DNA from: Bradyrhizobium sp. CCBAU 53340
GTDB taxonomy: Bacteria > Pseudomonadota > Alphaproteobacteria > Rhizobiales > Xanthobacteraceae
DNA: 64,000 nucleotides
Reading direction: 5' to 3'
Assembly (NCBI RefSeq): GCF_015291645.1
Contig: NZ_CP030056.1
Span: 1-64,000, forward strand
This document shows positions 31,986 through 64,000 of the stretch, piece after piece. Position 1 is the first letter of the stretch; each line of letters begins with the position of its first letter. The notes under the pieces were generated by a model that did no database searches, was not told where the DNA came from, and saw nothing but the letters and a program-made list of their open reading frames with translations. A program made the position numbers and the translations under genes.

Positions 31986-32024
31986 TTGACACATCGCCAA
32001 ATGATAGTATTATGCACTACTACC
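31986..32024 (+). promoter_or_regulatory. Promoter plus 22-bp dyad (copy A) before the prpD-like operon
   Basis: TTGACA (31986-31991) and TATTAT (32008-32013) are 16 bases apart, a good vegetative promoter. The dyad GATAGTAT-N6-CTACTACC (32003-32024) overlaps the -10 box and the likely start point, as a repressor site would. The ATG of the next gene is 22 bases further. Three similar dyads occur elsewhere in the window. Confidence 0.7.
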
Positions 32025-32046
32025 ATCATCTTTGTGGAGCCTTTCG

Positions 32047-33459
32047 ATGACCTCTGTGTCGACCCCCCAGCAATCTGAGGCCCTCATCGGCCTAACGATG
32101 CGTTTCGCTGAGCACGTTGCTTTGCTCAAGTTCGAGGAAATTCCCGCTGACGTCAGCAACAAGGCGAAGCTGATCCTGCGCGATGGCGTTGGTAATGAAA
32201 TTGCTGCATCCGCTATCAGCGAGCCAGCAAATAAAGTCATCGAGCTTGTCAAAGAGTGGGCCGGCACGCCGCAGAGCACCATCATTGGCCATGGCATGAA
32301 AGTGCCGACGCCCAATGCTGCGCTCGTTAATGCGATGATGGGGCACGGAATCGAGCTGGACGACGCGCATGGCTCTGGATTGATAAAGGCCGGTTCCGTT
32401 CTCGTTCCGGCAGCCTTTGCAATTTCGGAACTGTCGGGCGCTTCAGGTAAAGACGTCCTCACGGCGGTTGTTGCAGGCTATGACGTGGCAATCCGAATCG
32501 CGAAAGCGATCAATCCCGGTCACCGCCAGCGCGGTTATCACACGACTGGAACCGTTTCAGCCATCGGTGCTGCTGCTATGTGCGCGAAGCTTCTGGGCTG
32601 CAATGCTGAACAGATCGCCTGGGCCATCGGATTGGCTTGCATGCAGTCGGCGGGCATTCAGTCATATCTCGACGATCCTTGCATGGCAAAACCCTTTAGC
32701 CCCGGTAAGTCCGCCTTTAACGGCGTTCTCGCGGCGATCATGGCGAGCCGCGGCTTCAGCGGTCCTAAGAAAGTGCTAGAGTCGCGCGAGGGCTTCTTGA
32801 ATGCCTTCACGGACAGTGTCCGCCTCGACGACTTGCAAGACAACCTCGGCAAGCATTTCGCGATCATGGAAGTCGGATTCAAGCCACATGCGGCGTGCCG
32901 ATATGCCCACGGCCCGATCGACCTCGCGCAGGATGCGTTCGCGCTCGACGGCGTGCGTCTCGACAATGTCGATCGTGTTACCGTTCATATGAGCGAGCTT
33001 GCGATTCGTCAGGCGTCAAAGCCAAAAGTTACCAACCTCAATGCGGCGATGGGCAGCACGCAATTTAGCATCGCGCTGGCGTTGGCCTCCGGAAAGAATG
33101 GCCTGAAGGAATATTGGGACGGCTACAAGCAGGCGGCTGTCCACGAGGGCATGGGGAAGATCGAGTTGCAGAAGGAGGCGGCCTATGGACTGGGCGGACG
33201 TCAGGCTCAGATCGACATCGCGCTGAAGAACGGCAAAGTCGTGACTCGCAGCTCCCTCGAGCCGAAGGGTGAACCGTCCAATCCTCTCACCTCCGACGAG
33301 CTGGAAGCGAAGTTCTTGGCGATGACGACTATGGTGATCGAAGAGAAGCAAGCACGTCGAATCAGCGACCTCATGATGTCGCTCGAAAAGCAACCCAAGG
33401 CCGATGTCGTTCCTCAAGCTGCCGTGGTGGATAATGGGCCGTCGCTTCGAGCAGCATAA
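32047..33459 (+). CDS. MmgE/PrpD-family dehydratase/decarboxylase
   Basis: A 470-residue MmgE/PrpD protein of normal length. Conserved blocks include GHGMKVPTPNAALVNAMMGHGIELDDAH, VVAGYDVAIRIAKAI, GYHTTGTVSAIGAAA, the QSYLDD and KPFSPGKSAFNGVLAA region, and GFKPHAACRYAHGPID. Family members act on tri- and dicarboxylic acids: 2-methylcitrate dehydratase, cis-aconitate decarboxylase, and others. The start ATG 32047 is preceded by GTGGAG. The gene heads an operon with the PrpF- and ComA-like genes, overlapping the former. The exact substrate cannot be read from sequence. Confidence 0.9.
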   Translation: MTSVSTPQQSEALIGLTMRFAEHVALLKFEEIPADVSNKAKLILRDGVGNEIAASAISEPANKVIELVKEWAGTPQSTIIGHGMKVPTPNAALVNAMMGHGIELDDAHGSGLIKAGSVLVPAAFAISELSGASGKDVLTAVVAGYDVAIRIAKAINPGHRQRGYHTTGTVSAIGAAAMCAKLLGCNAEQIAWAIGLACMQSAGIQSYLDDPCMAKPFSPGKSAFNGVLAAIMASRGFSGPKKVLESREGFLNAFTDSVRLDDLQDNLGKHFAIMEVGFKPHAACRYAHGPIDLAQDAFALDGVRLDNVDRVTVHMSELAIRQASKPKVTNLNAAMGSTQFSIALALASGKNGLKEYWDGYKQAAVHEGMGKIELQKEAAYGLGGRQAQIDIALKNGKVVTRSSLEPKGEPSNPLTSDELEAKFLAMTTMVIEEKQARRISDLMMSLEKQPKADVVPQAAVVDNGPSLRAA

Positions 33460-34681
33460 CGCAAACGTCGATCCGGTCATGCCGTCCGCAATGAATGCGG
33501 GCGGCGGAGATCAAATCCCGATCCGCTGCACATTTATGCGCGGGGGATCCAGTCGGGGGGGCGTGTTCCTGGACGACGATCTGCCGCAGGATGAAGTCCA
33601 ACGGGCTGCCGTCCTGCTCGCGGCGTATGGATCGCCGGACGACCGCCAGATCGATGGTATCGGTGGCGCAGATCCACTGACCAGCAAGGCCGCCGTCGTG
33701 AAGTTGTCGTCGCGCCCGGATGCCGAGATCGAGTATACATTCTACCAAGTCGGCATTGATAATCCTTCGGTTTCGACAGGTGGCAACTGCGGTAACATGC
33801 TTGCCGCGGTCGGGCCGTTCGCTATCCGTCGCGGTTTGATCGATGCGGTCGAGCCAGAAACGATTGTGCGGATATATAACACCAATACTCGGCAGGTCGT
33901 GGTATCCCGCATTCCGGTTCGCGATGGTGAGCCGCTGTCAGACGGCGACTGCGCAATCGCCGGTGTGCCCGATACGGGGGCGCCGATCCGTTTAGATTTC
34001 GGCAATTGTGCCGGCGCCGTATCAGGCAAGCTATTGCCCACGGGGCGCGCTCGCGAAGCTATATCGATCGATGGCAAGACCATTGAAGTGTCACTGATCG
34101 ACGCGGCCACACCATTCGTTTTTGTCAACGCGGTCGATGTCGGGGCAGTCGGCACCGAGTCGCCGGACGCGCTACGCATCAACGAAATGCTAATGTCCCG
34201 CTTGGAGCAGGTTAGGGGATGGGCGGCTGTTAAACTCGGTCTGGTGACAGATCAAGCCGAGGCCCGCACCAAAAGCCCAAACATTCCGCGTGTAATAATG
34301 GTCTCGCCGCCGAGGTCCTATTCGGCTATTGGTGGCCATGAGGTCGCGGCATCGGACATCGATATCTGCGTTCGGCAGCTCGCCATGCAGCGCCCCCACA
34401 AGGCGCTCGCCGTCACCGGTGCGGTGTGTACCGCAGTGGCCTGCTCGGTCCCGAACTCGGTAGTTGCGGCAGCCATCGGCAAGCCGTTGCAGAACGTCCG
34501 ACTTGGCCATCCGAGCGGCGTGCTGCGAGTAGCCTCGAGTATCGCTCAGGGAGCAAGTGGCCCGATCATCGAGAGCGCGCAAATCGAGCGTACGGCACGG
34601 ATCATTATGGATGGGGCCGTGTATATTCGCCGACGGAAGTTTGAGGAGCTGGCCGCTGCTCTGGCCAGAAAGATAGCTTGA
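33434..34681 (+). CDS. PrpF-family isomerase/tautomerase
   Basis: A PrpF protein of about 415 residues (400 if ATG 33479 is used). The ATG at 33434 has GGTGGA just upstream and overlaps the prpD-like gene by 26 bases. Family motifs include PIRCTFMRGGSSRGGVFLDDDLP, the RQIDGIGGADPLTSKAAVV stretch, VSTGGNCGNMLAAVGPFAI (active-site Cys loop), and the C-terminal LGHPSGVLRV. PrpF proteins move double bonds in aconitate-like acids (2-methylaconitate isomerase, aconitate isomerase, 4-oxalomesaconate tautomerase). Next to an MmgE/PrpD enzyme this argues for an unsaturated tricarboxylic intermediate. Confidence 0.9.
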   Translation: MGRRFEQHNANVDPVMPSAMNAGGGDQIPIRCTFMRGGSSRGGVFLDDDLPQDEVQRAAVLLAAYGSPDDRQIDGIGGADPLTSKAAVVKLSSRPDAEIEYTFYQVGIDNPSVSTGGNCGNMLAAVGPFAIRRGLIDAVEPETIVRIYNTNTRQVVVSRIPVRDGEPLSDGDCAIAGVPDTGAPIRLDFGNCAGAVSGKLLPTGRAREAISIDGKTIEVSLIDAATPFVFVNAVDVGAVGTESPDALRINEMLMSRLEQVRGWAAVKLGLVTDQAEARTKSPNIPRVIMVSPPRSYSAIGGHEVAASDIDICVRQLAMQRPHKALAVTGAVCTAVACSVPNSVVAAAIGKPLQNVRLGHPSGVLRVASSIAQGASGPIIESAQIERTARIIMDGAVYIRRRKFEELAAALARKIA

Positions 34682-35475
34682 TGAGTGAGATGCAATCGCA
34701 CGACGATGGCTTTGTTCCCCCCGCGCGCCAGGGGAAACCCCGCAAGCGAGGGATGACAGCGGTTATCGACTACGGTCCGGACGGCTTCGGTTGGACGGGA
34801 GAGCGAGGCGTGGCCGATCTGCTTGATTGCGCGGCCGAGTATATCGACTTCGCCAAGATCTATGCGATGAACGCACTGCTTTTGCCAAAACCGGTCGTGC
34901 AGCGGATCGTCAAACTGTACCGCGACTCGGGAGTGAACTGCTATTCAGGCGGCATTCTGTTCGAATATGCTTATCAGCGCAACGAAATCGATCGCTTCAG
35001 TAGTCATCTGTGTTCGATCGGCTTCACTTCTCTGGAGATTTCGGAAAATTACATCACGCTGAACGACAACGAGCGTCTTTCGTTCATCGAGCGCTTTCAG
35101 CGCCTTGGGCTTTCGGTTATCTACGAATTTGGGCGTAAGAACCCCGAGCAGCCGATGCGGATGGAAGAACTTGAAGGTCTCGTCACTTCGTTAACCAATC
35201 GAGGCGTCGACCATATTATCGTGGAGCAGTCCGAGATAGACATGGCTGCAAAAAGCGCGCCCGATCTGCTCAAGGCGCTGGCGGCCGCGCCTTGGTTCGA
35301 ACGAATTTTGATTGAGGCTGATCCGTACCGCTACCCAAAACAACATGTCGGCCTGCTGCAGGATTTCGGCCCGGATGTCAATCTTGCCAATATCGCGCCC
35401 GGGCAGGCCCTGAGACTGGAGGGTTTGCGTCGCGGGATAGGTCGCGCTGTCAATTATTCCATTCTCGCCGAGTGA
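34681..35475 (+). CDS. ComA-like (phosphosulfolactate synthase family) protein
   Basis: A 264-residue TIM-barrel protein of the ComA family. Visible blocks are RGMTAVIDYGPDGFGWTGERGVADLLDCAAEYIDFAKI, KLYRDSGVNCYSGGILFEYAY, GFTSLEISENYITL, GLSVIYEFGRKNP and FERILIEADPY. Characterised ComA enzymes join sulfite to phosphoenolpyruvate to give phosphosulfolactate. Bacterial relatives outside coenzyme M or sulfolactate pathways are mostly uncharacterised. The ATG overlaps the PrpF stop (TGATG), so the three proteins are probably made together. Whether the enzyme forms or breaks a C-S bond here, or does other chemistry, is unknown. Confidence 0.85.
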   Translation: MSEMQSHDDGFVPPARQGKPRKRGMTAVIDYGPDGFGWTGERGVADLLDCAAEYIDFAKIYAMNALLLPKPVVQRIVKLYRDSGVNCYSGGILFEYAYQRNEIDRFSSHLCSIGFTSLEISENYITLNDNERLSFIERFQRLGLSVIYEFGRKNPEQPMRMEELEGLVTSLTNRGVDHIIVEQSEIDMAAKSAPDLLKALAAAPWFERILIEADPYRYPKQHVGLLQDFGPDVNLANIAPGQALRLEGLRRGIGRAVNYSILAE

Positions 35476-37006: not shown

Positions 37007-37020
37007 TACAACTGAATCGG

Positions 37021-39009: not shown

Positions 39010-39246
39010 ATGAGCCACGATACGTCAATAAAGCTATCCGAGCGCGAAAAACAATGCCTGCAGTTCGCGGCAGAAGGGAGATCGTCTTGGGCAATTGGGA
39101 GGGAACTGAAGATCAGCGAGAATACGGTCAATTATCATAAGAACGCCCTGCGAAAGCTTGCTACGAGGACCCGCGTCCAGGGTATCATCAAGGCGATACG
39201 CCTCAAGCTGATCCCAGATCCGTCGCAGGAAACGCGACGAGGATAA
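39010..39246 (+). CDS. LuxR-type helix-turn-helix domain protein (domain only)
   Basis: A 78-residue protein consisting of a GerE/LuxR DNA-binding domain: KLSEREKQCLQFAAEGRSSWAIG, then RELKISENTVNYHKNALRKLATRTRVQGIIKAI. Full quorum-sensing LuxR proteins have a ~160-residue signal-binding domain before this, and none is seen in the 300 bases upstream. It is either the surviving end of a truncated LuxR regulator or a free-standing HTH protein. The IS701 remnant begins about 50 bases downstream. Confidence 0.65.
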   Translation: MSHDTSIKLSEREKQCLQFAAEGRSSWAIGRELKISENTVNYHKNALRKLATRTRVQGIIKAIRLKLIPDPSQETRRG

Positions 39247-43028: not shown

Positions 43029-43967
43029 TTATGAGAGCGCGTCGGTCAGCTCCGGAACCGCCTGGTAGAGGTCGGCGACCAGGCCGTAATCGGCCACCTG
43101 GAAGATCGGCGCGTCCTCGTCCTTGTTGATCGCGACGATCACCTTGGAGTCCTTCATGCCGGCCAGATGCTGGATCGCACCGGAAATGCCGACGGCGACA
43201 TAGAGCTCGGGGGCCACGACCTTGCCGGTCTGGCCGACCTGCCAGTCGTTCGGCGCATAGCCGGCGTCCACCGCCGCACGCGAGGCACCGACGCCGGCGC
43301 CCAGCTTGTCGGCGAGCGGCTCGATGTATTTGGCGAAGTTCTCGCGGCTCTGCATGGCCCGGCCACCAGAGACGATGATCTTGGCCGAGGTCAGCTCGGG
43401 ACGGTCGCTCTTGGCAACTTCCTCACCGACAAAGGTCGACAGGCCGGGATCGGCCGCGGCAGCGACGCTTTCGACCGGCGCGTTGCCACCGGCAGCTGCC
43501 GCCGCAAAGGTCGAGGTGCGGACCGTGATGACCTTCTTGGCGTCCTTCGACTTCACCGTCTGGATGGCGTTGCCGGCATAGATCGGACGCTCATAGGTGT
43601 CGGGCGCGACCACCTTGGTGATCTCCGAGACCTGCATGACGTCGAGCAGCGCCGCGACGCGCGGCATCACGTTCTTGAAGCGCGAGGTCGCGGGCGCGAC
43701 GATCGCATCGTAGGACGGGGCCAGCGAAACGATCAGCGCGGCCAGCGGCTCGGCCAGATCGTGCGCGTAGGCCTCGCCTTCGGCGACCAGCACCTTGGCA
43801 ACACCAGCGAGCTTCGCGGCGACCTCGGCCGCAGCCTTGGTGCCCTGCCCGCCGCCAGCGACCAGCACGTGGACGTCGCCGCCGAGCTGGGACGCCGCGG
43901 TCAGCGCCTTGTTGGTGGAGTCCTTGAGGACCTCCTGTTCGTGTTCAGCAATCAACAACGCAGTCAT
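43029..43967 (-). CDS. etfA: Electron transfer flavoprotein alpha subunit
   Basis: A 312-residue EtfA of normal length. The C-terminal FAD domain carries [70 protein letters not shown], the classical EtfA signature. With EtfB it moves electrons from acyl-CoA-type dehydrogenases to ETF-ubiquinone oxidoreductase. The gene overlaps the etfB stop by one base (TGATG). The sequence is of the general housekeeping type, not FixB. Codon use is strongly G/C at third positions, more like core genes than like its neighbours. Confidence 0.95.
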
Positions 43968-44716
43968 CAGAGCACCCCGGCTTCGTTCTTGAGCTTCGAC
44001 ACCAGCTCGGCGACGTCCTTCACCTTGACGCCGGCCTTGCGGCCCGCGGGCTCAGCCGTCTTCAAAACTTCGAGGCGCGCAGTGACGTCGACACCGTAAT
44101 CGGCAACGGTCTTCTCCGCGATCGGCTTCTTCTTGGCCTTCATGATGTTGGGCAGCGAGGCATAGCGCGGCTCGTTGAGACGCAGATCGGTGGTGACGAT
44201 CGCCGGTCCCTTGAGCTTGACGGTCTGCAGGCCGCCGTCGACTTCACGGGTGACCTTGAAGTCGGAGCCTTCGACCTCGAGCTTCGAGGCAAACGTCGCC
44301 TGCGACCAGCCCAGCAGCGCAGCCAGCATCTGGCCGGTCTGATTGCTGTCGTCGTCGATCGCCTGCTTGCCGAGAATGATCAGGCCGGGCTGCTCTTCTT
44401 CTGCAACCTTCTTGAGGATCTTGGCGACGGCGAGCGGCTCGACGGTGCCTTCGGCCTTCACCAGGATGCCGCGATCGGCGCCCATGGCAAGACCGGTGCG
44501 GATCGTCTCCGACGCCTGCGCCGGTCCAATGGAGACCACCACGACTTCGGCCGCCTTGCCGGCTTCCTTCAGGCGCAGCGCTTCCTCAACCGCGATTTCG
44601 TCGAAGGGGTTCATCGACATCTTGACGTTGGCGAGTTCAACGCCCGATCCATCGCCCTTGACGCGGACCTTGACATTGTAATCGACCACCCGCTTTACCG
44701 GCACTAAGACCTTCAT
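43967..44716 (-). CDS. etfB: Electron transfer flavoprotein beta subunit
   Basis: A 249-residue EtfB. The start [20 protein letters not shown] at 44716 gives the usual length; an upstream in-frame start at 44749 is less likely. Motifs include [18 protein letters not shown], the [24 protein letters not shown] loop that binds AMP, and [25 protein letters not shown] (the ETF-beta signature). It is divergent from the TcuA-like flavoprotein gene, with dyad copy B between them, so both operons may answer to the same regulator. Confidence 0.95.
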
Positions 44717-44742
44717 CAGGGTTTCCTCAACAATTGCAGCAG

Positions 44743-44780
44743 TTGACATCTGTTGAAGGATAGTATCTCATGCTACTACC
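44743..44780. promoter_or_regulatory. Divergent promoter region with 22-bp dyad (copy B)
   Basis: The dyad GATAGTAT-N6-CTACTACC spans 44759-44780, with the same half-sites as copy A. TTGACA at 44743-44748 stands in almost the same place relative to the dyad as in copy A (10 versus 11 bases). The dyad is 66 bases before the tcuA-like ATG and 42 bases before the etfB ATG. Confidence 0.65.
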
Positions 44781-47405: not shown

Positions 47406-47415
47406 GGGCTCCATC

Positions 47416-50895: not shown

Positions 50896-52137
50896 TCATT
50901 GGGATGATGGCTTAGCCTGCACGATGACGCCAGCCTCGCGCAGTTCTTCCAACCGGGCCTGCGTGATGCCGAGGGAGCGCAGAATCGCAAACGTGTGTTG
51001 ACCGAGATCCGGAGCGGGCATCCGAATCCTTCCGGGCGTAGTTTCGAGCCTCGGGACCACGTTGTGCATTAAAACCGTTCCGAGTTCGGAGTCCGGTAAC
51101 CCAACGACGATTTCGCGAGCTTGAACATGGGGGTCATCCAAGAATTGATCGATGTCGTAGATTGGTGCAGCAGTTACGTCTGCCCGCTCGAATATACTCA
51201 TGTTATCTTCAAGCGTCCGCGCGGCAATGAATTCCGCGATAGGCTCCTCGCAAGCATCGGCGTTTTTGATGCGATCAGAGTTCGTCAAAAATCGGGGATC
51301 CACGATCATGTCAGGGCGACCGATAGTCCGGAACAACCTCTCGGCCACAACTTGCATCGAGGCGGAGATTGCGATCCAGCGAGAGTCGCTGGTACGGAAT
51401 GTGTTGCGCGGCGCTCCGGTAAGCGATCGACTGCCGGTCCGCGGGCGTACCTGCTGTGTTAGTTGATAGATTCCGGCTTCGGGACCGAGGAGGGAAAAAA
51501 GCGGATCTAACAAGGGCAAGTCGATAACCTGGCCGTTACCCCCGCTCACTTCTCGATGCCTGAGCGCAACCATGGTTGCCCCAAATCCGTAAATGCCCGC
51601 GACCATATCGGCGAGCGTGGCGGGTGGCAGCAGCGGAGGTCGATCAGGGAATCCGTTGCGGGAAGCGAAGCCTGACATGCCTTCGACCAGAGTGCCGAAG
51701 CCGGGCCTGTCCCGATAGGGACCGGTCTGCCCCCATCCCGAGATTCTCACGATGATCAGTCCTGCATTCTGTGCTCGAAGGACCTCGGGCAACAAACCCA
51801 GCTTTTCCAGACCTCCGGGTCTGAAGTTCTCGACCAGCACGTCCGCCGTCGCGAGCAGATCCGATAGGATCGTCCGACCTCTCTCGTCGCGAAGGTCTAG
51901 CGCGACACTCTTCTTGTTCCGGGCGTAGGTCTTCCAATGGATGCTGACATCGTTGACCCGCCAAGCGCGCAGAGGGTCGCCCGAGACGATGTCCTCAATC
52001 TTGATGACTTCGGCTCCGAAGTCGGCGAGCTGCAGGGTGAGCATATTCCCGGCGACCAGACGCGAAAGGTCCACGACACGGACGCCGTTAAGCGCGCCAG
52101 CAGCCTCTGGCTCGAACTGCTTAGGTACGGCCTTCAT
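50896..52137 (-). CDS. CaiB/BaiF-family CoA transferase
   Basis: A 413-residue class III CoA transferase: GVRVVDLSRLVAGNMLTLQLADFGAEVIKIE at the start, ADVLVENFRPGGLEKLGL, YRDRPGFGTLVEGMSGF, and LADMVAGIYG with the nucleophile Asp177. Members move CoA between carboxylic acids (formyl-, succinyl-, itaconyl-, mesaconyl-CoA types). With the CitE-like lyase it makes a classical activation-then-cleavage pair. Dyad copy C lies 89 bases before its start. Confidence 0.92.
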   Translation of the reverse strand: MKAVPKQFEPEAAGALNGVRVVDLSRLVAGNMLTLQLADFGAEVIKIEDIVSGDPLRAWRVNDVSIHWKTYARNKKSVALDLRDERGRTILSDLLATADVLVENFRPGGLEKLGLLPEVLRAQNAGLIIVRISGWGQTGPYRDRPGFGTLVEGMSGFASRNGFPDRPPLLPPATLADMVAGIYGFGATMVALRHREVSGGNGQVIDLPLLDPLFSLLGPEAGIYQLTQQVRPRTGSRSLTGAPRNTFRTSDSRWIAISASMQVVAERLFRTIGRPDMIVDPRFLTNSDRIKNADACEEPIAEFIAARTLEDNMSIFERADVTAAPIYDIDQFLDDPHVQAREIVVGLPDSELGTVLMHNVVPRLETTPGRIRMPAPDLGQHTFAILRSLGITQARLEELREAGVIVQAKPSSQ

Positions 52138-52226: not shown

Positions 52227-52248
52227 GGTAGTATTAAGTGATACGACC
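52227..52248 (-). promoter_or_regulatory. 22-bp dyad (copy C) upstream of the caiB-like gene
   Basis: GGTAGTAT-N6-ATACGACC, with the same half-site size and spacer as copies A, B and D, but one substitution (TAC-G-ACC) in the second arm. It is in the interval between the yeiH-like stop and the caiB-like start, so it should act on the caiB-citE pair. Confidence 0.6.
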
Positions 52249-53467: not shown

Positions 53468-54358
53468 ATGCCAATGAATTTGCATTTCCTCCGCTTCTTT
53501 ACCACCGTCGCTGAGGCTGGAAGCTTTTCGCGAGCAGCGGACATCTTGCGCGTTAGCCAGCCCGCGGTCTCGAAAGGAGTACGCGATTTCGAACTGCAAG
53601 TGGGCTGTCGCTTGCTGGATCGTACATCGAAAGGAGTACGTACGACCCGCGAGGGGCGGGCACTTCTCAGGCACGCAGAAAATCTGTTCGCTGCCGAGCG
53701 GGCCGCCGAAGAGGAACTGTCGTCGCTGCGCAACCTCGCGAGCGGATCGCTTCACATCGGGGCAAGCACCACGATCGCGACCTACATGATCGCTGAGTAC
53801 ATAGGCAGCTTCCGGCGCAGGTATCCGAGCATCGATGTGCATCTGGTAAGCGCCAACACGCGGGATATTGCCGGAATGATGCGCGCGCATGAAATAGAGA
53901 TCGCCCTCGTGGAAGGACCGGTCGAAGACGATGATCTCGTCAGTACGGCCTGGCGGACGGACATGATGAGCCTGATAGCAGGTCCGACTCACGCCTTCGC
54001 ATTATCGGAAAATCACGTGTATGCGGCGGCCCTCGAAGATGAAATCCTGATCGTTCGGGAACCAGGCTCCGGCTCACGGGAGATCGTCGCGCAGGCGCTG
54101 TTGAACCATGGCGTGCGGCCGCGCAAAACCCTCGAAATCGGCAGCACGGAAGCGATCAAGCAAGTTGTCGCATGCGGTCTTGGTGTCTCGATCGTCTCAA
54201 CATCAACCATTGGCGATCAGATCAAGCTTGGCCGGCTCAAGGCGATAAAAATGAAGGATCTGCAGATATCGCGCACGCTTTGGCACGTGGAAGTACGGGG
54301 ACGAACCAAAATTCCTGCCGCGATTGCCTTTGAGCGAATCATAGGTGTCGCCCCATGA
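53468..54358 (+). CDS. LysR-family regulator (YeiE/CysB-like position)
   Basis: A 296-residue LysR regulator. The helix-turn-helix is at residues ~5-65 (NLHFLRFFTTVAEAGSFSRAADILRVSQPAVSKGVRDFELQVGCRLLDR), and the effector domain begins near 90 (GSLHIGASTTIATYMI). It is divergent from the yeiH-like gene across an 86-base gap, repeating the yeiE-yeiH arrangement. It probably controls that exporter, and sulfite or a related anion is the likely signal by analogy. Confidence 0.92.
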   Translation: MPMNLHFLRFFTTVAEAGSFSRAADILRVSQPAVSKGVRDFELQVGCRLLDRTSKGVRTTREGRALLRHAENLFAAERAAEEELSSLRNLASGSLHIGASTTIATYMIAEYIGSFRRRYPSIDVHLVSANTRDIAGMMRAHEIEIALVEGPVEDDDLVSTAWRTDMMSLIAGPTHAFALSENHVYAAALEDEILIVREPGSGSREIVAQALLNHGVRPRKTLEIGSTEAIKQVVACGLGVSIVSTSTIGDQIKLGRLKAIKMKDLQISRTLWHVEVRGRTKIPAAIAFERIIGVAP

Positions 54359-55140
54359 CATCAATATGATGGAGTCGCGGGATCGTCTCGTCATTCGGAA
54401 GGCTTTGCTGGACGTGACGGCGGATCAAAAAAGGCGAGCGGCGCGAGATAAACCCAGTTTGCGTCAGCAACATCCAGAGAGCAACTTATCCGATCCACCA
54501 TAGATAGCGAGACAGTTCGCCAGATGTCTGCTGCACTGCAATCCGATCAACGTCCGAGGGGTCCGTAGTCAGGACATCCCATCGCGGTTCTTGTGCCGAC
54601 GCGCAAATTATTGGTGGTTGGCCGTTGGATGCAATGGTAGCGAGGTCTCGTTTTGAGCGGCCGTAATGGGAATATGTTCTCCGAGGGGGCGCCCCGACAG
54701 GATATTTTGGGCAGGGTCCTCTGTTGCTTGGAGGCTGAGACTGTGCCCCCAGTCCGCTCTCCGGAAAATCTGGCGAGTCGGGTGGGCCTGATTAGGTCGA
54801 TGATTGTGGCCATCTCATCTCGAGCGCTCGCTTTGGCTGGCTTTGCGATCGGCTGGTCGCGATCTGGTCGAACGCGCCATCGCGATCAAGTCATGCACTT
54901 GACACGAAAGCCATAGTCATAAAGGCTGCTACCCATGTTAGTTTCGCTTTGCCCGCTGGATATCAAAGACTTGCGCTTCTATCAAAATTGAGCGCCGACG
55001 GCGTCGAGCGGCAAGGAGCTACGTCGGAATGGTCAGCTAGGGCGTGACAATCAAGCTTCGAAGGCGAATTGATCAACTGAGGCAAAGCACTTCTTGTCGA
55101 CGGGTGGGGGCGCTGCTTGGCTCAAATCAGGAAAAATCGG
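54359..55140. other. Gene-poor spacer
   Basis: Around 780 bases between a LysR and a TrmB-like regulator gene. Only short, motif-free frames are present. No insertion-sequence relic was recognised. Confidence 0.4.
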
Positions 55141-56046
55141 GTGAGCGGCGATAAGCAAGCTAATCTAAGTGAGTTGATGCCAGACTTGCTCGCTCTGGGT
55201 TTTAGCGAGTACGAAGCGCGTGCCTACCTCGCGCTCTATGAGCTTTCGCAGGCGACTGCCTACGAAGTAGCCAAACTTGCAGGCTTACCCAAGGCGAACG
55301 CATATTCTGTCCTCGAGAGTCTGGCAAAGAAGGAGGCGGCTCAACCGATCTCCGAAACTCCACTGCGGTATGTGGCGGTAGCGCCCAAGGTTCTGTTTGA
55401 GCGAATTGCGACAGCGACGAGCAAGCGCTGCGCAAAGTTGATCCGAACGATTCCGGCTGTTTCACAGTCCAACGACGGTGGCTACGTATGGACCATTAAC
55501 GGCGAGGACGCGATCGCCGCCAAGATGGAGGCTATGATCGACGGAGCGAAATCACACATTTGGGTAAAAACAGAAGAGAAAATACTGCTGCCGCACCGCG
55601 ACGCGCTTCGACGTGCTGCAGACCGCGGGGTTGCGATTCTCATCATCCTTTTCGGGACTCAAGTCGAGAAGTTTCAATTCGGTGCGAAGTCGCGAACTTA
55701 TCTCCACGAGGGAAACGGCATTCCCGTGGGAATCGCACCGCATCTTGTAACCCTTACAGTGGATTTCGAAGAAGCTCTGGTGGCGGAGATTCGTGCGCAA
55801 GGCGGCTCCTACACGCGAAATAAGCCGATAGTTAATCTTGCTGACTCCCTATTGCGGCACGAGATCTACTTCGCGGAAATATTCGAAATGTTCGGGCAAC
55901 CGATCCAGAAGACGTTCGGCCCCGCTATTATCGAGCTTCGAAGGAAGTATCTTCCCGCACCGCAAGTTGCGGCGCTGGAAAGCCTTCTAGGGCTTACCGC
56001 GAGTCGAGTTGAGAAAAAATCCAAGCTGAAAGAAGAAAAGATCTAA
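55141..56046 (+). CDS. TrmB-family transcription regulator
   Basis: A ~301-residue protein. The N-terminal winged helix is of the TrmB type (LMPDLLALGFSEYEARAYLALYELSQATAYEVAKLAGLPKANAYSVLESLAKKE), and the C-terminal domain has SHIWVKTEEKILLPHRDALRRAADRGVAILIILFG, like the phospholipase-D-like ligand domain of TrmB regulators. GTG 55141 with AGGAAA seven bases upstream is the best start; a TTG at 55117 is an alternative. TrmB proteins often bind TACT...AGTA palindromes, which resemble the 22-bp dyads found elsewhere in the window, so it is a candidate regulator. That link is speculative. Confidence 0.78.
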   Translation: MSGDKQANLSELMPDLLALGFSEYEARAYLALYELSQATAYEVAKLAGLPKANAYSVLESLAKKEAAQPISETPLRYVAVAPKVLFERIATATSKRCAKLIRTIPAVSQSNDGGYVWTINGEDAIAAKMEAMIDGAKSHIWVKTEEKILLPHRDALRRAADRGVAILIILFGTQVEKFQFGAKSRTYLHEGNGIPVGIAPHLVTLTVDFEEALVAEIRAQGGSYTRNKPIVNLADSLLRHEIYFAEIFEMFGQPIQKTFGPAIIELRRKYLPAPQVAALESLLGLTASRVEKKSKLKEEKI

Positions 56047-56129
56047 CGCGTCTGTCGCGGCGATTGGCACGCTTCGCCGGCGTGTTTCGCGCGCCTGCAA
56101 GGAGCAGCAATCTTAAGGGGGAGTTGGCT

Positions 56130-57053
56130 TTGAACCTTCAAAAGTTGCGCGCGCTGCATAGTGTAATCGTGACCGGTTCGGTCACCGGGGCCGCAACTCG
56201 ACTTCATTTGACCCAACCAGCGGTAAGCCGTTCGCTGTCTGCCCTTGAAGCGGAGCTGGGATTCAAGCTCTTCAACCGGCTTGGTGGGCGCCTGGTTCCG
56301 ACTCCTCAAGGAGAAGCCTTCTCGCGGGAATGCGAGCGTATCCTGCTGGATATCGACGATCTTACCCGCATCGGCAAAGAAATCCGCGCCAATCGAGGCG
56401 GTCGCCTTCGGATCGTGGCAATGCCACAACTCGCCCGAAGTCTACTCGTGCCGGCACTGGCCCAATTTTCGAAGGAGTTTCCGAGTGTTTCGATTTCTTT
56501 GGAAGTCAGGGAAAGACGCGAAGTCGAACGTTGGGCTTCGGGACTTAGGTTCGACGTTGGGATAGTAATGCTCCCGACTCAATTTGAAATGTTGACGTCG
56601 CATTCCTTCGCCGAATTGGTTCCCGTTGCGGTGCTTCATCCCGATCATCCACTTGCGGCGAATAAGACGATTCTCCCCAGTGATCTGATCGAGGACCGTT
56701 TTATTGCGCTGGACCGGACGACGTTGTTGCGGCAGATCGTTGATGGAATGTACGTACAAGCTGGCCTTGCCGCGAACATTTGGGTTGAAGTGTCGTCGGC
56801 GTTCATCGCGTGCCAAATGGTGGGAGCCGGAATGGGTGTGTCGATATCGGATCCATTCAGCGCAGCGCTGCTAGCAGAGCGAGATGTCGTGGTTCGCCCT
56901 TGCAAGACGTCGGCAAGGCTCAACTATGCTTTCGTCTATCCGCGCCATTCGAAGAAGACGGCGCAGGCGGTCCGGTTTTCCGAAATCGTGAGGAGCACTC
57001 TGGAGAATTTGATGGGGCGGTTCGAATTCGTGCAAGGGCAAACAATTCGATAA
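56130..57053 (+). CDS. LysR-family transcription regulator
   Basis: A ~307-residue LysR regulator: MNLQKLRALHSVIVTGSVTGAATRLHLTQPAVSRSLSALEAELGFKLFNR at the N-terminus, with an effector domain from ~90. No ATG stands at the right place. TTG at 56130 gives the standard LysR start and has AAGGGGGAG six bases upstream; TTG 56124 or 56064 are alternatives. It lies upstream of, and in line with, the EhuBCDA-like transporter operon and probably controls it. It resembles NocR/OccR-type opine and amino-acid regulators only in general outline. Confidence 0.9.
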   Translation: MNLQKLRALHSVIVTGSVTGAATRLHLTQPAVSRSLSALEAELGFKLFNRLGGRLVPTPQGEAFSRECERILLDIDDLTRIGKEIRANRGGRLRIVAMPQLARSLLVPALAQFSKEFPSVSISLEVRERREVERWASGLRFDVGIVMLPTQFEMLTSHSFAELVPVAVLHPDHPLAANKTILPSDLIEDRFIALDRTTLLRQIVDGMYVQAGLAANIWVEVSSAFIACQMVGAGMGVSISDPFSAALLAERDVVVRPCKTSARLNYAFVYPRHSKKTAQAVRFSEIVRSTLENLMGRFEFVQGQTIR

Positions 57054-57178
57054 ATTGCACTTCTTCCGTGCAGTGCTGTAGACGCGCGGGTCGCGGCGGT
57101 ACGCACAGCCAACTTGACCACGTTTTCCTGAGGAATCGGGAGGATCCGGCAAGTCGCGCGTCCTCGATATTACAGCAA

Positions 57179-57194: not shown

Positions 57195-57330
57195 GCTAAT
57201 TGAATTGCTGCGGTTCCGAATAACCCTTCAGATATGTAGGATGCGAGTCTGGCTCAATCCAAACTGAGCAGAAGCCAAAAGAGATGCCGGTGTGTCAATG
57301 GCGACGCATTCGAGACAGATGAGGAAACAC

Positions 57331-58176
57331 ATGCTACGAACTTTGCATATTTTTCTAGCACTCGCTTTCCTGACTTTCTCGTCATCGAGTTTTGCCGGTG
57401 CCAGGCTGGACGACGCAAAGAAGAGCGGCCTTACCCTCGGCTTCAGCAACGAGCCGCCCTTCGCGTTCAAGCAGGCCGATGGATCATTGGCCGGGTCAGA
57501 CTACGATCTCGCAAAGCTCGCATTCAACCGCCTTGGAGTAGAGCGGATCGAAGGAACGGTGGTTGCGTTCGGATCGCTCATCCCGGGACTTCAAGCCAAA
57601 CGTTTCGATTTTATCGCGACCGGACTCTATATCCTTCCCGCGCGCTGCCTTCAGGTTCTCTTCACCGAGCCCAACTTCACCGTTCAGGAAGGTCTTCTCG
57701 TTCGCAAAGGCAATCCCAAGCAAATCCATAGTCTTGACGACATCGTCAAACACGAGGACATCAAGGTTGGTGGCAACATAAGTGGCCAGCCGACACAGAA
57801 TGCAGTCAAGGCCGGCGTGAAGGATAGCCAAATCACGCGTTTTCCGGACATCCCCTCCAATGTCGCGAGCCTGAAAGCGGGCAGGATCGACGGGGCATTG
57901 CTTATATCGGTAACTGCACGCTGGAACGCAAAGAACGATCCGACCCTGGAAGTCGCCGAACCATACACGGGCCTGCTCATAGATGGCAAGCCGAAGCAAG
58001 ACTACGGCGCATTTGCCTTCCGTAAGGAGGATTCGGAGCTTCGGGACGCATTTAATGCCGAGATGCTCAAGATCGTGCATTCTTCGGAATATGTTGAGAT
58101 CCTGAAAAAGTACGGCATGACGCAGAACGAAGTGCCGGCGGCCGACGTCAAGCTCGATACTCTTTGTAAGCAGTAG
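57331..58176 (+). CDS. EhuB-like amino-acid/ectoine ABC transporter binding protein
   Basis: A 281-residue family-3 solute-binding protein with a signal peptide (MLRTLHIFLALAFLTFSSSSFAG). The pattern LGFSNEPPFAF, GSDYDLAKLAFNRLGVERIEGTVVAFGSLIPGLQAKRFDFIATGLYILPARC closely follows EhuB, the ectoine/hydroxyectoine receptor of rhizobia. The gene order B-C-D-A is the same as in ehu. The ATG at 57331 has GAGGAAA upstream. The downstream genes (DUF1989, aminotransferase) differ from known ectoine-degradation clusters, so the ligand could be another cyclic or amino acid. Confidence 0.85.
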   Translation: MLRTLHIFLALAFLTFSSSSFAGARLDDAKKSGLTLGFSNEPPFAFKQADGSLAGSDYDLAKLAFNRLGVERIEGTVVAFGSLIPGLQAKRFDFIATGLYILPARCLQVLFTEPNFTVQEGLLVRKGNPKQIHSLDDIVKHEDIKVGGNISGQPTQNAVKAGVKDSQITRFPDIPSNVASLKAGRIDGALLISVTARWNAKNDPTLEVAEPYTGLLIDGKPKQDYGAFAFRKEDSELRDAFNAEMLKIVHSSEYVEILKKYGMTQNEVPAADVKLDTLCKQ

Positions 58177-58204
58177 GACTCGTGCCCGAAGCGGACGGTG
58201 ACAG

Positions 58205-58888
58205 ATGTCGGCGCTCTACGAGGGTAGATGGCTGCTCCTTTCTGGTGCGGTAACGACGATGGCCCTTTACGCGCTCTCGACAGTATTGATGTTCGCTTGC
58301 GCGCTCGTTTTCGGTATCGCCAGGACATCCAAGAGCTGGTGGATCCGAACCATCAGTTTGCTCTATGTCGAGATCTTCAGGGGCATATCTCTGGTGGTCG
58401 TCCTGTTCTGGCTCTACTTTGTTTTGCCGTTCTTCGGGGTTGCGATTTCCGCCTTTTGGGCGGCCACACTCGCCATAGGCATGTGCTTCGGGGCTTATGG
58501 AGCTGAGGTCGTCAGGACGGCGATCGGCGCTATCCCGCGGGGCCAGTATGACGCCGCCTTGGCGATCAATATGGTGCCATCAATGATGATGCGCCGGATC
58601 ATTCTTCCTCAAGCAATGCTGTCGATGATACCACCTCTCGGTAACCTCAGCATCCTGGTATTGAAAGCCACCTCGGTTGCCGCCTTGGCGACCGTTCCGG
58701 AACTGACTTTTGAAGCCTACTCTCTCAATATCAGAACCTTTCAGACCGTGCCGATCTATCTCGTTGTCATGATCTTCTATGTGGCTGCGGCGCAATTGAT
58801 AGGAGCGGCAATCGCGTACGCAGAGCGACGTCTCGGGTTATGGCAGGGTAAGCCAACGCACGGCGCAACCAGGGGCTGGTCGGCATGA
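58205..58888 (+). CDS. EhuC-like amino-acid ABC transporter permease
   Basis: A 227-residue His/Glu/Gln-type permease with five membrane segments and the loop YGAEVVRTAIGAIPRGQYDAALAINMVPSMMMRRIILPQAMLSMIPPLGN. It follows ehuB by 28 bases and overlaps the next permease gene by 4. It forms the channel with the EhuD-like protein. Confidence 0.9.
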   Translation: MSALYEGRWLLLSGAVTTMALYALSTVLMFACALVFGIARTSKSWWIRTISLLYVEIFRGISLVVVLFWLYFVLPFFGVAISAFWAATLAIGMCFGAYGAEVVRTAIGAIPRGQYDAALAINMVPSMMMRRIILPQAMLSMIPPLGNLSILVLKATSVAALATVPELTFEAYSLNIRTFQTVPIYLVVMIFYVAAAQLIGAAIAYAERRLGLWQGKPTHGATRGWSA

Positions 58889-59544
58889 AGGTCGATTTCC
58901 AATATGCCTGGGAGTTGCTTCCGCAACTCGTGGTCGCGGCGCAAACCACATTGCTCGCCGCCGTCCTCGGTTTTATCGCCTCCCTGCTTGGCGGCCTCCT
59001 TCTCTTTGCGCTGTACAGCGCTAAGCACCGTCTGACCAAAATCTTAGTTCGCGGCTACGTCGAATTCGCAAGAGGGGTGCCGCTCCTGGTCCTGATCTAT
59101 TTTCTGTACTTCGTGGGGCCTTCGGCAGGCGTCGTGATCAGCCCGCTGGTGACCGGCGTCATTGCTCTCGGCTTGCACTACAGTGCGTATATGGCCGAGG
59201 TCTACCGTGCCGCAATGATCGGTGTTCCGGCCGGGCAATGGGAGGCATCAACATCCATAAATCTCTCAACGTTCGACACATATCGGCGGATCATTGTTCC
59301 ACAGATGATCCCATTCATCATTCCAAATGCCGGAAGTTACTTCGTCTACATGCTGAAGGACACGCCGCTGCTCGCATCCATATCCGTTTGGGAACTCATG
59401 GCCGTTGCTCAGGCGGAAGGAGCCAGGCGGTTTCAGTACTTTGAACCCATAACGATGGTTGGGATAATGTTTCTCGTCCTCAGCATTGCCGGCGCGTTTC
59501 TCATCAACAGGCTCGAGCGACTGTCCCAGAAGGGATGGCGGTAA
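58885..59544 (+). CDS. EhuD-like amino-acid ABC transporter permease
   Basis: A 219-residue permease: VEFARGVPLLVLIYFLYFVGP, YSAYMAEVYRAAMIGVPAGQWEASTSINLSTFDTYRRIIVPQMIPFIIPNAGSYFVYMLKDTPLL. This is the standard polar amino-acid permease loop. It overlaps the upstream permease by 4 bases, and its TAA overlaps the ATPase ATG (TAATG). Confidence 0.92.
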   Translation: MKVDFQYAWELLPQLVVAAQTTLLAAVLGFIASLLGGLLLFALYSAKHRLTKILVRGYVEFARGVPLLVLIYFLYFVGPSAGVVISPLVTGVIALGLHYSAYMAEVYRAAMIGVPAGQWEASTSINLSTFDTYRRIIVPQMIPFIIPNAGSYFVYMLKDTPLLASISVWELMAVAQAEGARRFQYFEPITMVGIMFLVLSIAGAFLINRLERLSQKGWR

Positions 59545-60323
59545 TGTCGGCCGGACCGTTCTCAGTACAGCTAAGGAACGTTACAAAACGTTTTGGGGCG
59601 TCCACGGTCCTAAATGACCTAAATCTCGAAGTCGGACAGGGTGAAAAGCTTGTGGTCATCGGTCCGAGTGGATCGGGAAAATCAACTCTCCTCAGGGTTC
59701 TCATGACATTGGAGGGAATCGACAGAGGCAGTGTCTCTATCTGCGGCCGTGAGTTGTGGTCGTGCGATTCGACCGGCGCAGCACGCCAAGCATCGGCCCG
59801 GCAAACACGTACGATTCGGAGCGATGTCGGCATGGTCTTTCAGAGCTTTAATCTTTTTCCTCACCTTACGGCGCTTGAAAACGTGACCGAGGGACCGATT
59901 CGCGTCCTCAAGATGCCGAAGGAGAAAGCCGTGAGCCTCGGAAAGGAGCTGCTTCGAAGGGTGGGACTGGAAGATCGGTGCGACTACTACCCTGCGAGGA
60001 TGTCAGGCGGTCAGCAACAAAGGGTTGCGATCGCGAGAGCAATGGCGATGAGACCGAAAATACTCCTATTCGACGAGGTGACCTCGGCGCTCGATCCTGA
60101 ACTCGTTGGCGAGGTGCTAGCGGTCATTCGGGAGCTGACTCACCAAAAGGAACTGACGGTTATCATGGTAACGCATCAGATGTCCTTCGCGCGAGAGATC
60201 GCCGACAGGGTTTGCTTCTTCGATCACGGCCGAATTGTCGAGGAAGGAGAGCCGTACCAGTTCTTTTCTCAACCGAAAAGCGCGAGAACCCAGGCGTTTC
60301 TAAAGTCGGTCCTGGACGCCTGA
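59544..60323 (+). CDS. EhuA-like amino-acid ABC transporter ATPase
   Basis: A 259-residue GlnQ/EhuA-type ATPase with Walker A GPSGSGKST, Q-loop VFQSFNLFPHLTALENV, signature MSGGQQQRVAIARAMAMRP, Walker B ILLFDEVTSALDPELVGEVL and His switch VTHQMSFAREI. The family length is normal. The ATG 59544 overlaps the EhuD stop and is preferred to 59535. Confidence 0.93.
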   Translation: MSAGPFSVQLRNVTKRFGASTVLNDLNLEVGQGEKLVVIGPSGSGKSTLLRVLMTLEGIDRGSVSICGRELWSCDSTGAARQASARQTRTIRSDVGMVFQSFNLFPHLTALENVTEGPIRVLKMPKEKAVSLGKELLRRVGLEDRCDYYPARMSGGQQQRVAIARAMAMRPKILLFDEVTSALDPELVGEVLAVIRELTHQKELTVIMVTHQMSFAREIADRVCFFDHGRIVEEGEPYQFFSQPKSARTQAFLKSVLDA

Positions 60324-60367
60324 CGATCTTAGTCTCAGCAGTCGAATTCCTCTTAGGAGACACTCAA

Positions 60368-61234
60368 ATGACTTCCAGATCCATTTCGATGCCCGAGCCG
60401 GAGAATGCTCAGACTCGCCGGTCGGCGCGCAAAGAAACGGTCTACGCCGTCGGACAAATTCCGGCGCTCGATATGGAATTCTACCAGAACGTTGGGTCCG
60501 GTGCTGAGAAAGTGTCGGAGTTGACGATCCCTGCTCGGGATGGCGGCGCGTTCGAAGTGCCTGCCGGGCACCTCTTTCGGATCGTGAGCGTGGAGGGATC
60601 GCAGGTTGGTGATTTTAATCTTTGGAATAGCGACAATCTTTCTGAACACTTCTACAGCGGTAAGACGCGGGCGATTCATGCGACGCACATTTCTACTGGT
60701 GATCGCCTGTGGAGCAGCATGCCATACCTGAGGCCGATGGCGACTATCACTTACGACAGTCTGGGATGGTATGGGTGGGATTCCGATGGTTGTGGAATTC
60801 ACGATGTGATCGGAACACGCTGCGACCCTTACACGAGAAGAATGATAACCGGTGAAGATTACGATCACTGTTGCCATTCCAATCTCGTTCGAGCCCTATC
60901 TGCCTTCAGAAAGATTTCGGCGAAGGAAGCCGAGGGCTACGTGCACGACGTCATGAACGTCTTTATGTGCACAGGCTTCGATGTCGAAAGTCACGAGTAT
61001 ATCAAAAAGGCAAGCCCGGTTCGTCCAGGCGACTTCATCGAATTCTTCGCGGAGATCAATCTCCTTGGTGCGCTATCCGCCTGTCCCGGCGGCGACTGTG
61101 GGCCGCGGGTCCCAGGGCAGACCCCCAAGTGCTATCCCCTGAAGGTGGAAATCCTTCGTCCCGCGAAGGGCGCGCTGAATGGTTGGAAGTCGCCTGAACC
61201 CTCGCCCTACAAAGGCAAGCACGGGATGAGCTGA
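60368..61234 (+). CDS. DUF1989 (urea carboxylase-associated) family protein
   Basis: A 288-residue protein of the DUF1989 family: GGAFEVPAGHLFRIVSVEGSQVGDFNLWNSDN, YGWDSDGCGIHDVIGTRCDPY, HCCHSNLVRALS, DVMNVFMCTGFD and VRPGDFIEFFAEINLLGALSACPGGDCG. Members accompany urea-carboxylase and guanidine/amino-acid catabolism genes, and several proved to be amidine hydrolase or carboxyguanidine deiminase subunits. AGGAGA precedes the ATG at 60368. The gene sits directly behind the ehu-like transporter (44 bases), so it is likely in that operon and may act on the imported N-compound. Confidence 0.85.
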   Translation: MTSRSISMPEPENAQTRRSARKETVYAVGQIPALDMEFYQNVGSGAEKVSELTIPARDGGAFEVPAGHLFRIVSVEGSQVGDFNLWNSDNLSEHFYSGKTRAIHATHISTGDRLWSSMPYLRPMATITYDSLGWYGWDSDGCGIHDVIGTRCDPYTRRMITGEDYDHCCHSNLVRALSAFRKISAKEAEGYVHDVMNVFMCTGFDVESHEYIKKASPVRPGDFIEFFAEINLLGALSACPGGDCGPRVPGQTPKCYPLKVEILRPAKGALNGWKSPEPSPYKGKHGMS

Positions 61235-61526: not shown

Positions 61527-62150
61527 ATGTCCAGTGACGTGTCGAGCTTTCCCGCACAATTGATGCAGGGCTACGCCGCTTTCATGTTGGACCGCTTTCC
61601 TCAGGAACGACAAAGGTTCGATTCATTGGCCGCGCGCGGGGCAGTCACCGGAAGCCCTGGTGATCGGATGTTGCGACAGCCGCGTTTCACCCGAATTGAT
61701 ATTCAATGCGAGACCCGAGGAAATCTTCGTCATCAGAAACGTTGCAGCGCGTACCGCCCTTCGGTGTCGAGGGAGAATTCCACGCCGCCGGGGCTGCTCT
61801 GGTTGTGCTCGGTCACGCCCGGTGTGGGGCGTCCCCGCTTATGCCAAAGGCAAGGTATCGGCCTCACCAGAAAGCTTCACGACTCCATGGATGCAACGTC
61901 TGGTCCCGGTGGCGCACAGAGCTGGCCGTGTTGCGGCGGCCTGGACGACGATCACACCGACTTGGAGCTGGCTGCGATCGATCAGTCCTTGCTCAATCTA
62001 ATGAGTTTTCCGTGGTGTGCGATCGCGTAGGTCGCAAGCAGCTCACGTTGCATGGATCGTATTTCGAGATTGCGAACGGTGTTCTGCACATACGAGATCG
62101 AGAGACCGGCAAATCTGATCCAGCGTGTGCGGACCGTTTTACGGACGCGA
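61527..62150 (+). pseudogene. Beta-carbonic anhydrase, decayed
   Basis: Pieces of a beta-class carbonic anhydrase lie in successive frames: FPAQLMQGYAAFMLDRFPQERQRFDSLAARG, then MIGCCDSRVSPELIFNARPEEIFVIRNVA (zinc Cys and Asp-Arg pair), then GEFHAAGAALVVLGHARCGA (zinc His and Cys), and a C-terminal NEFSVVCDRVGRKQLTLHGSYFEIANGVLHIRDRETG. At least three shifts separate them, and the interval 61.88-61.97 kb is also degraded. No product is expected. Confidence 0.82.
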
Positions 62151-62275
62151 TTACCTGTGCATCCGGACGATATCGATGAGGGGGCCGCTCCTGCGCCGAT
62201 AGGTTTGAAATCGAAATCGGCTCGCGAATGGCCTGCTGCACATCCGGCAGATGACAACGACGAGAGGAACTACCA

Positions 62276-63511: not shown

Positions 63512-63767
63512 TGCAGCTCGCTGCCCTGACAATACGTGTGGAGCGATGTCGGACCACATTCGAGCAGCTCATATCGTTTTGCGGTTCATCGGGTCCGTGA
63601 TGCGAAATGGAGATCTGCGACATGATGTCATCATTGCTCCAGGGCCGCATGAGCTCTCTAACCAGCGTTCTGTATCGCGGCCAAACGGGCGAACCGCCAA
63701 GATCAACTCATCGAGCTGGCCGCTGAGCTGGTCTTGCAAAACCGCCTCCACGAAAGTCGAGGTATTT

Positions 63768-63789
63768 GGTAGCTTGAAATAATACTACC
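63768..63789 (+). promoter_or_regulatory. 22-bp dyad (copy D) upstream of the maleate isomerase-like gene
   Basis: GGTAGCTT-N6-ATACTACC, lying within a longer perfect inverted repeat (ATTTGGTAG ... CTACCAAAT, 63764-63793). It ends 39 bases before the ATG at 63829. The symmetric half-sites match copies A-C. Confidence 0.65.
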
Positions 63790-63828
63790 AAATGGCTAGC
63801 CTCAAAGCGATCGACAAGGGAGGAAGTA

Positions 63829-64000
63829 ATGGCCGCCATTCGACGGATAGGTATCCTCGCGCCGCCGATAAATGTGGCTATGGAAACCGAGCTACCGTCC
63901 TACGTTCCTCCCAATGTCAAGCTCAATCACAACAGGCTCACCAAACCCGGCACCGCTATAGCGAAGGAAGCGCAGCTCGCTATGGCCAACTCGTTGGATC
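63829..64000 (+). CDS. Maleate isomerase / Asp-Glu racemase superfamily protein, 5' part
   Basis: The first 57 codons only; the gene continues beyond the window. The start MAAIRRIGILAPPINVAMETELPSYVPPNVKLNHNRLTKPG matches the opening of maleate cis-trans isomerases and arylmalonate decarboxylases (GxLxPxxNxxMExE). A strong GGAGGAAG site is 3-10 bases upstream. The two active-site cysteines would lie downstream of the window edge and cannot be checked. The dyad upstream ties it to the prpD, etf/tcuA and caiB-citE units. Confidence 0.7.
   Translation, partial: MAAIRRIGILAPPINVAMETELPSYVPPNVKLNHNRLTKPGTAIAKEAQLAMANSLD

Follow-up and report, generated by a model that had tools for sequence, protein, structure and literature searches.

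Gene content of the locus and the four dyads

We analysed a 64,000-nucleotide stretch of DNA (the window; C2:852420–916419) on the 982-kb plasmid C2 of the 8.44-Mb genome of Bradyrhizobium guangdongense. It contains four copies of a 22-bp inverted repeat (dyads A–D), each upstream of genes for organic-acid enzymes, together with a gene for a TrmB-family regulator. The features on which the argument turns are the following (window coordinates, strand in brackets where one applies):

31986–32013 (+), sigma70-like promoter TTGACA-16-TATTAT of the prpD operon, 11/12 matches; its -10 is overlapped by dyad A
32003–32024, dyad A, predicted operator, 22 bp 5' of the prpD start codon
32047–33459 (+), MmgE/PrpD family enzyme, prpD (PF03972, PF19305), with orthologues elsewhere
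33404–34681 (+), PrpF family isomerase
34678–35475 (+), ComA-like (phosphosulfolactate synthase family) protein
43029–43967 (-), etfA, electron transfer flavoprotein (ETF) alpha
43967–44749 (-), etfB, electron transfer flavoprotein beta
44743–44748 (+), TTGACA on the tcuA side, starting 16 nt before dyad B; no full promoter in the scan
44759–44780, dyad B, predicted operator between the divergent etfBA and tcuA
44847–46355 (+), TcuA, tricarballylate dehydrogenase family (NF006130 above cut-off)
46410–49947 (+), ABC transporter: SsuA/NrtA-like binding protein, two permeases, ATPase (TIGR01728 141.5 bits, below the cut-off of 163.5)
50002–50871 (-), CitE-like C-C lyase; nearest models RipC/Ccl and CitE, both below cut-off
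50896–52137 (-), CaiB/BaiF class III CoA-transferase
52227–52248, dyad C, predicted operator upstream of caiB-citE
54912–54933, dyad-like site upstream of trmB, weak at 8.0 bits and preceded by a TTGACA whose start is 13 nt away
55141–56046 (+), TrmB-family regulator, probable dyad binder
63768–63789, dyad D, predicted operator
63829–64000 (+), start of an Asp/Glu-racemase/arylmalonate-decarboxylase-like gene, which continues past the window (L012:17411–18172, minus strand)

IS91 and integrase genes separate operon A from operon B.

The dyads conform to the 22-bp consensus palindrome GGTAGTAT-N6-ATACTACC. Dyads A (GATAGTAT-TATGCA-CTACTACC, 32003), B (GATAGTAT-CTCATG-CTACTACC, 44759) and D (GGTAGCTT-GAAATA-ATACTACC, 63768) each differ from it at two positions, and dyad C (GGTAGTAT-TAAGTG-ATACGACC, 52227) at one. 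The first-pass annotation had reported four such dyads at these places, all of them intergenic and none inside a gene; this proved accurate, since all four lie between genes and no further site with up to 4 mismatches occurs in the window. It had also noticed that TTGACA stands at almost the same distance from A and B, starting 17 and 16 nt upstream respectively, and that A overlaps a -10 box, and both observations are borne out. Dyad B may serve both of the divergent operons that flank it.

At the level of the genome the motif is rare: only A–D are found with at most 2 mismatches, all within 32 kb. Three further sites carry 3 mismatches and all are chromosomal, two of them inside long frames (L009, a 662-residue open reading frame, ORF; L011, an accC homologue) and one (L010) probably intergenic. 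A reversed control pattern gave 1 site at up to 2 mismatches and 12 sites at up to 3.

Recurrence of the sites in other genera

Part of the window is shared among peanut symbionts. A segment of 24.5 kb is a 100.0% match to plasmid NZ_CP030058.1 of B. guangdongense CCBAU 51658, the host source of which is a nodule of Arachis hypogaea and which carries nodulation and type III secretion genes. Four more peanut Bradyrhizobium plasmids contain this segment at about 100% identity, and the whole set was therefore counted as one sample, not five; L037 is again the same plasmid region. Other loci, cited by L number, came from an order-level sample of 397 genomes (the 6 others that contain TrmB at E≤1e-20, all taken), from plasmid records, 63 of which had a tblastn match (the 5 best non-Bradyrhizobium records, H31–H35), from one additional search (all 4 loci) and from another (two new genomes, three loci). 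L048 and L058 are one locus, and L062 (P. ferrooxidans) is a near-duplicate of L048. L057, with a TrmB only 30% identical, belonged to the whole-locus scan set and was left out of both intergenic scans.

The first-pass annotation had proposed scanning the genome and its relatives with a matrix built from the four sites, and in such a scan the sites recur before prpD and trmB in other genera. Our matrix was symmetric and drew on no sites but the window's eight half-sites. Applied to the 250 bp before prpD (280 bp in L066, a locus obtained after the matrix was fixed), it gave best scores of 19.3 (L031), 13.8 (L038), 21.7 (L048), 11.4 (L052) and 22.5 bits (L066), that is, a site in 5/5 genomes, although the dyad of L038 (Hyphomicrobium) is weaker, with 4 mismatches. 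The five scores sum to 88.7, against a maximum of 52.9 among 5000 column-permuted matrices, none of which reached either the true sum or the true minimum score. Of the 250-bp windows taken with overlap from 11 loci (1824 in all, true sites included), 1.26% score at least 11 bits. The near-duplicate L062 scored 19.8 bits.

The intergenic DNA of 13 trmB-locus sequences contains 15 sites of at least 10 bits, spread over 9 sequences; the permuted matrices average 1.57 and give at most 9, with 0/500 reaching 15. At 12 bits or more there are 12 sites, spread over 7 sequences, against a permuted mean of 0.57 and a maximum of 7 (0/500). One of these 12, L049:11957, overlaps the annotated trmB start. 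Permutations near the true order were excluded here and in the prpD-upstream test. When the 13 sequences are searched throughout, 12/13 matches of at least 12 bits are intergenic. The control loci, three of many tcuA plasmid matches (H112–H114; L059, L060 and L061, none with an annotated TrmB), have no site of at least 10 bits. In L049, a Sulfitobacter plasmid with its own TrmB, a dyad at 9296 lies between maoC and biotin carboxyl carrier genes, and dyads at 18874, 18900 and 18935 form a cluster between metK and a tripartite transporter.

The sites also keep company with TrmB. In a sample of the family, 16/391 genomes contain a dyad with at most 2 mismatches, the window's own included. Three of the 15 others carry the same four sites, a metagenome-assembled genome (MAG; G164, L031) carries two, and the remaining 11 carry one each; a TrmB profile search (E≤1e-8) of these 15 was positive in exactly the four multi-site genomes and gave no match in the 11 single-site ones. 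In the MAG one dyad lies 89 bp before trmB, whose product is 70% identical to that of the window, and the other before prpD, whose product is 86% identical over the 206 residues present before the contig ends. A dyad precedes trmB itself in Cupriavidus (L050) as well. A site in L032, surrounded by comD, comE, aldehyde dehydrogenase and caiB homologues, was counted as chance because it lies inside a 244-residue ORF in a genome without a match to the window's TrmB.

Gene order in relatives links part of the system independently of the dyads. Hyphomicrobium sp. CS1BSMeth3 (L038) has contiguous genes for prpD-prpF-comA-trmB-tcuA-binding protein, and G552 (L052) has the same order in one run. Since they form a single run in two relatives, operons A and B of the window, along with trmB, are parts of one system, and the prpD-to-tcuA run has apparently been broken up in Bradyrhizobium. 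L039 shows comA-trmB-tcuA-binding protein before its contig ends short of prpD, and pTAV3 of Paracoccus versutus has trmB, prpF, prpD, an NrtA/SsuA-type transporter, tcuA and comA within 16 kb.

The TrmB-family protein as the predicted regulator

Most of what is known of TrmB regulators comes from archaea and concerns sugar metabolism. The protein encoded at 55141–56046 possesses the N-terminal TrmB winged-helix domain [PF01978, 67.0 bits, cut-off 25.6] and a C-terminal effector-binding domain [PF11495, 40.8 bits, cut-off 22.2] matched at profile positions 1–100 of 233 only. Its AlphaFold2 model (mean pLDDT 87.7, pTM 0.65) has as its best Foldseek matches TrmBL2 [E 2.5e-15, TMq 0.38] and TrmB 3qph [E 4.7e-11, TMq 0.53], and it also matches 2f5t, the sugar-binding domain of TrmB [E 1.2e-7, TMq 0.34]. 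The sequence alignment to 3qph stops at query residue 170, short of the archaeal sugar-binding Gly/Glu region. With 62 bits against a cut-off of 650 for the TrmBL1 equivalog (NF047390), it is a TrmB-family protein and not TrmBL1. A PF01978 search of the genome scored the window's trmB at 71.1 bits and the next gene at 31. Counting the window's own, the clade numbers 123 protein clusters at E≤1e-40. Class-wide and phylum-wide searches found TrmB in 1/385 genomes (the window's own) and 2/398 (the window's own and G713).

It is very probable, in our view, that the dyads are operators of this plasmid-encoded TrmB-family regulator and that they link the dispersed carboxylate genes. Among the regulators put forward earlier, which included GntR and IclR candidates, the TrmB-like protein fits best, its gene lying within the prpD–tcuA run in L038 and L052. 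The proposal of one regulon under one repressor is supported, by the dyads, the gene runs and the co-occurrence of TrmB, as regards one regulon and one regulator, whereas repression, like binding by TrmB, the dimer and the inducer, is something that we infer.

We envisage that a TrmB dimer would grip both 8-bp half-sites with its winged helix-turn-helix (HTH) domains and, sitting over the -10 just after a TTGAC -35 box, would block RNA polymerase, until a carboxylate of the pathway bound at the C-terminal domain and released it. The predicted regulon would comprise prpD-prpF-comA, etfBA, tcuA with the ABC transporter genes, caiB-citE and the racemase/decarboxylase-like gene, and the common operator would keep the separated pieces of a former gene run in step. 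TTGAC starts 14–19 nt before the dyad in five prpD promoters (window, L031, L038, L048 and L052), so that the dyad covers the expected -10. Because dyad A overlaps a recognisable -10 box, repression by occlusion is likely, and best supported, there. The weak site at 54912–54933 could possibly reflect autoregulation of trmB.

A number of results weigh against this reading. Because the consensus was derived from the four sites, we also determined how readily 8-6-8 dyad families of that size appear in Markov sequence. The largest such family in the window at up to 3/16 mismatches has 4 members and is seeded elsewhere, and 45/100 Markov windows reach at least 4 members; at up to 4 mismatches the largest has 7 members, a number that 35/100 Markov windows reach. 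Since random windows so often hold families of this size, the dyads in the window alone are weak evidence; the case is carried by the genome-wide and cross-species results. These have their own soft points. With cruder gene calls and near-order permutations kept, 9 sites were found in 4/13 sequences, the site count being reached by 1–2/500 permutations and the sequence count by 1–8/500. The whole-locus scan was much weaker: 25 sites of at least 9 bits stood against a permuted mean of 10.3, with 11/300 permutations reaching that number, and at 6 bits or more 48/300 reached the number observed there, the density at low threshold being unconvincing. Other spacers score too, perhaps because the half-sites are triplet-like; at 10 bits or more there are 15 sites with spacer 6, 12 with spacer 9 and 8 with spacer 3, and at 12 bits or more 12, 5 and 7 respectively. 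No site of at least 10 bits was found in L039 (contig cut before prpD), L051 (trmB match in two pieces), L054 or L055; the best in L067 has 9.5 bits and L068 has none of 8 or more.

The remaining points concern the system itself. A full promoter match was returned by the scan at A only and at none of B, C and D, and the window's own trmB has upstream of it only the 8.0-bit site. Three of the four multi-site genomes carry the same plasmid region, which leaves the MAG as the only independent one. Operons C (caiB-citE) and D (the racemase/decarboxylase-like gene) are tied in mainly by their dyads. No match to caiB, citE or the racemase-like gene was found in L038, L039, L048 or L052; citE or yeiH homologues do occur in some other trmB loci (L049, L051, L053, L056, L067 and L068). 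There is, finally, another possible binder in a small HTH gene, listed here with the other candidate regulators and their neighbours:

29024–29917 (minus), IclR-family protein
about 39010–39246, small HTH gene
53468–54358, LysR protein
56064–57053, second LysR protein
57292–60323, ectoine-type (EhuABD-annotated) transporter, after the second LysR gene
60212–61234, DUF1989 protein

The 300 bp upstream of ehuB contain no dyad.

TrmB might bind the dyads and yet activate, or regulate in both directions, like several of its archaeal counterparts. The family offers precedent for repression or activation according to operator position (PMC4158304), and at C and D no promoter was recognised within which the dyad could be placed. 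At A and B, and at the prpD promoters of L031, L038, L048 and L052, the dyad nevertheless covers the expected -10, which is a repressor position, and we consider activation improbable.

Control of organic-acid catabolism is a frequent role of IclR and LysR proteins. Here an IclR gene and two LysR genes are located among the regulated genes, so that one of these proteins might bind the dyads, TrmB being an unrelated neighbour. The IclR protein has no homologue at E≤1e-10 in the 18 loci searched (14, L037 among them, + 4), though L051 has another annotated IclR-family gene. The LysR proteins have only 24–34% identical matches, confined to 5/17 loci outside the same plasmid region (L031, L050, L051, L067 and L068), and L038, L048 and L066 have the dyad with no LysR match. 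TrmB, by contrast, is accompanied by multiple sites per genome and is itself preceded by dyads in L031 and L050; both the IclR and the LysR proteins were rejected as binders, an assignment to either being quite improbable. No GntR is annotated in record positions 70000–160000, where the gene table is incomplete and GntR was not used as a query.

That A–D resemble one another by chance or are left over from a mobile repeat, an idea favoured by the unbeaten loose null in the window and by the transposase genes between operons A and B, is hardly credible given their rarity in the genome, their intergenic placement, their recurrence at orthologous promoters of other genera and the failure of any permuted matrix to do as well (0/500 intergenic, 0/5000 prpD-upstream).

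Operator types, pathway and significance

In the AlphaFold2 model the second HTH helix spans residues 51–63. Its start reads LPKAN in nine loci (window, L031, L038, L039, L048, L062, L066, L050 and L051) and P-R-A/P-N in eight (L049, L052–L056, L067 and L068). Sites of the window type with at least 13.5 bits are present in 7/9 LPKAN loci (not L039 or L051) and in 2/8 P-R loci (L049 and L053). A second motif, GTWGTWGC-N4-GCWACWAC, is present with at most 1 mismatch in 8/8 P-R loci and in one (L050) of the six LPKAN loci tested, namely L031, L038, L048, L050, L051 and L066. It totals 13 sites in 7/7 loci with L053 left out (permuted mean 0.0125, maximum 1 in 400); as it was read by eye from the loci and then tested, the test is biased and only supporting. 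The correlation suggests that helix start and operator type co-evolved. TrmB homologues 40–46% identical to the window's (L049, L053–L056, L067 and L068) lie near the biotin carboxylase gene accC and have a related but different dyad; maoC is also near the trmB homologue in L049, L056 and L068.

The pathway proteins give partial hints of a substrate. TcuA is well above the cut-off of NF006130 [591.1 bits, cut-off 369] and below that of TIGR02485 [279.8, cut-off 372.55]. The ComA-like protein aligns to the phosphosulfolactate synthase family over residues 23–254 of 265 and, as its TIGR03849 score is 140.3 bits against a cut-off of 280, can be called ComA-like only. Seven residues that form a Gly/Lys-rich stretch in the solved enzyme 1qwg are missing from it in the alignment. 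This protein may carry out another reaction. That the substrate is a sulfonated carboxylate is a guess, since the SsuA-like, YeiH-like, ComA-like and sulfopyruvate-decarboxylase-like (outside the window) proteins all score below curated cut-offs.

Two weaker dyad-like sites outside the window (C2 836413–836610), at L012:1994–2015 (13.0 bits) and L012:2170–2191 (11.4 bits), lie in the gap between the sulfopyruvate-decarboxylase-like comE and an aldehyde dehydrogenase gene, and possibly mark a fifth operon of the regulon. A broader proposal would make the TrmB clade a group of bacterial carboxylate sensors whose operator shifted with the helix start, LPKAN going with GGTAGTAT-N6-ATACTACC and P-R-A/P-N with GTWGTWGC-N4-GCWACWAC, and would give the window an undescribed pathway in which sulfite is split off by a ComA-like lyase, the sensed carboxylate being perhaps a sulfonated tricarboxylate. 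Hints of such a pathway come from the SsuA-like transporter, from the YeiH-like exporter and from the sulfopyruvate-decarboxylase-like genes beyond the window with their two weaker sites; taken as a whole the proposal is possible but doubtful.

The archaeal TrmB regulons (Pyrococcus/Thermococcus TrmB and TrmBL1/Tgr, Halobacterium VNG1451C) involve the same family, with PF01978 and PF11495. They too have palindromic operators placed to repress, and the archaeal TM cluster encodes the regulator beside a transporter under its control (PMC4158304). The archaeal operators given there are TACT-N3-AGTA, TATCAC-N5-GTGATA and TACT-N7-8-GAGTA, the half-site order of which, TACT...AGTA, is the reverse of the AGTA...TACT in the operator predicted here. 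Unlike those regulons, the present one lies on a bacterial plasmid and concerns carboxylate and CoA genes, not sugar genes.

The TcuA family is common to this system and to tricarballylate utilisation (tcu), typical systems of which are regulated by the LysR-type TcuR; the ETF, PrpD, PrpF, ComA-like protein, SsuA-like ABC transporter and adjoining TrmB gene set the present one apart. ComA of coenzyme M biosynthesis is of the same family as our ComA-like protein, which here has catabolic gene company. In the literature searched, which included PMC4158304 and PMC9426492 in part and left subscription papers mostly outside, neither a bacterial TrmB operator nor such a gene set was found, and nothing matching was found there for PrpF/MmgE/phosphosulfolactate synthase pathways or under B. 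guangdongense plasmids.

The analysis provides a predicted operator, a predicted regulon and a helix-to-operator correlation for a bacterial TrmB clade. By marking dispersed plasmid genes as one putative pathway, it would narrow the search for a substrate in this peanut symbiont.

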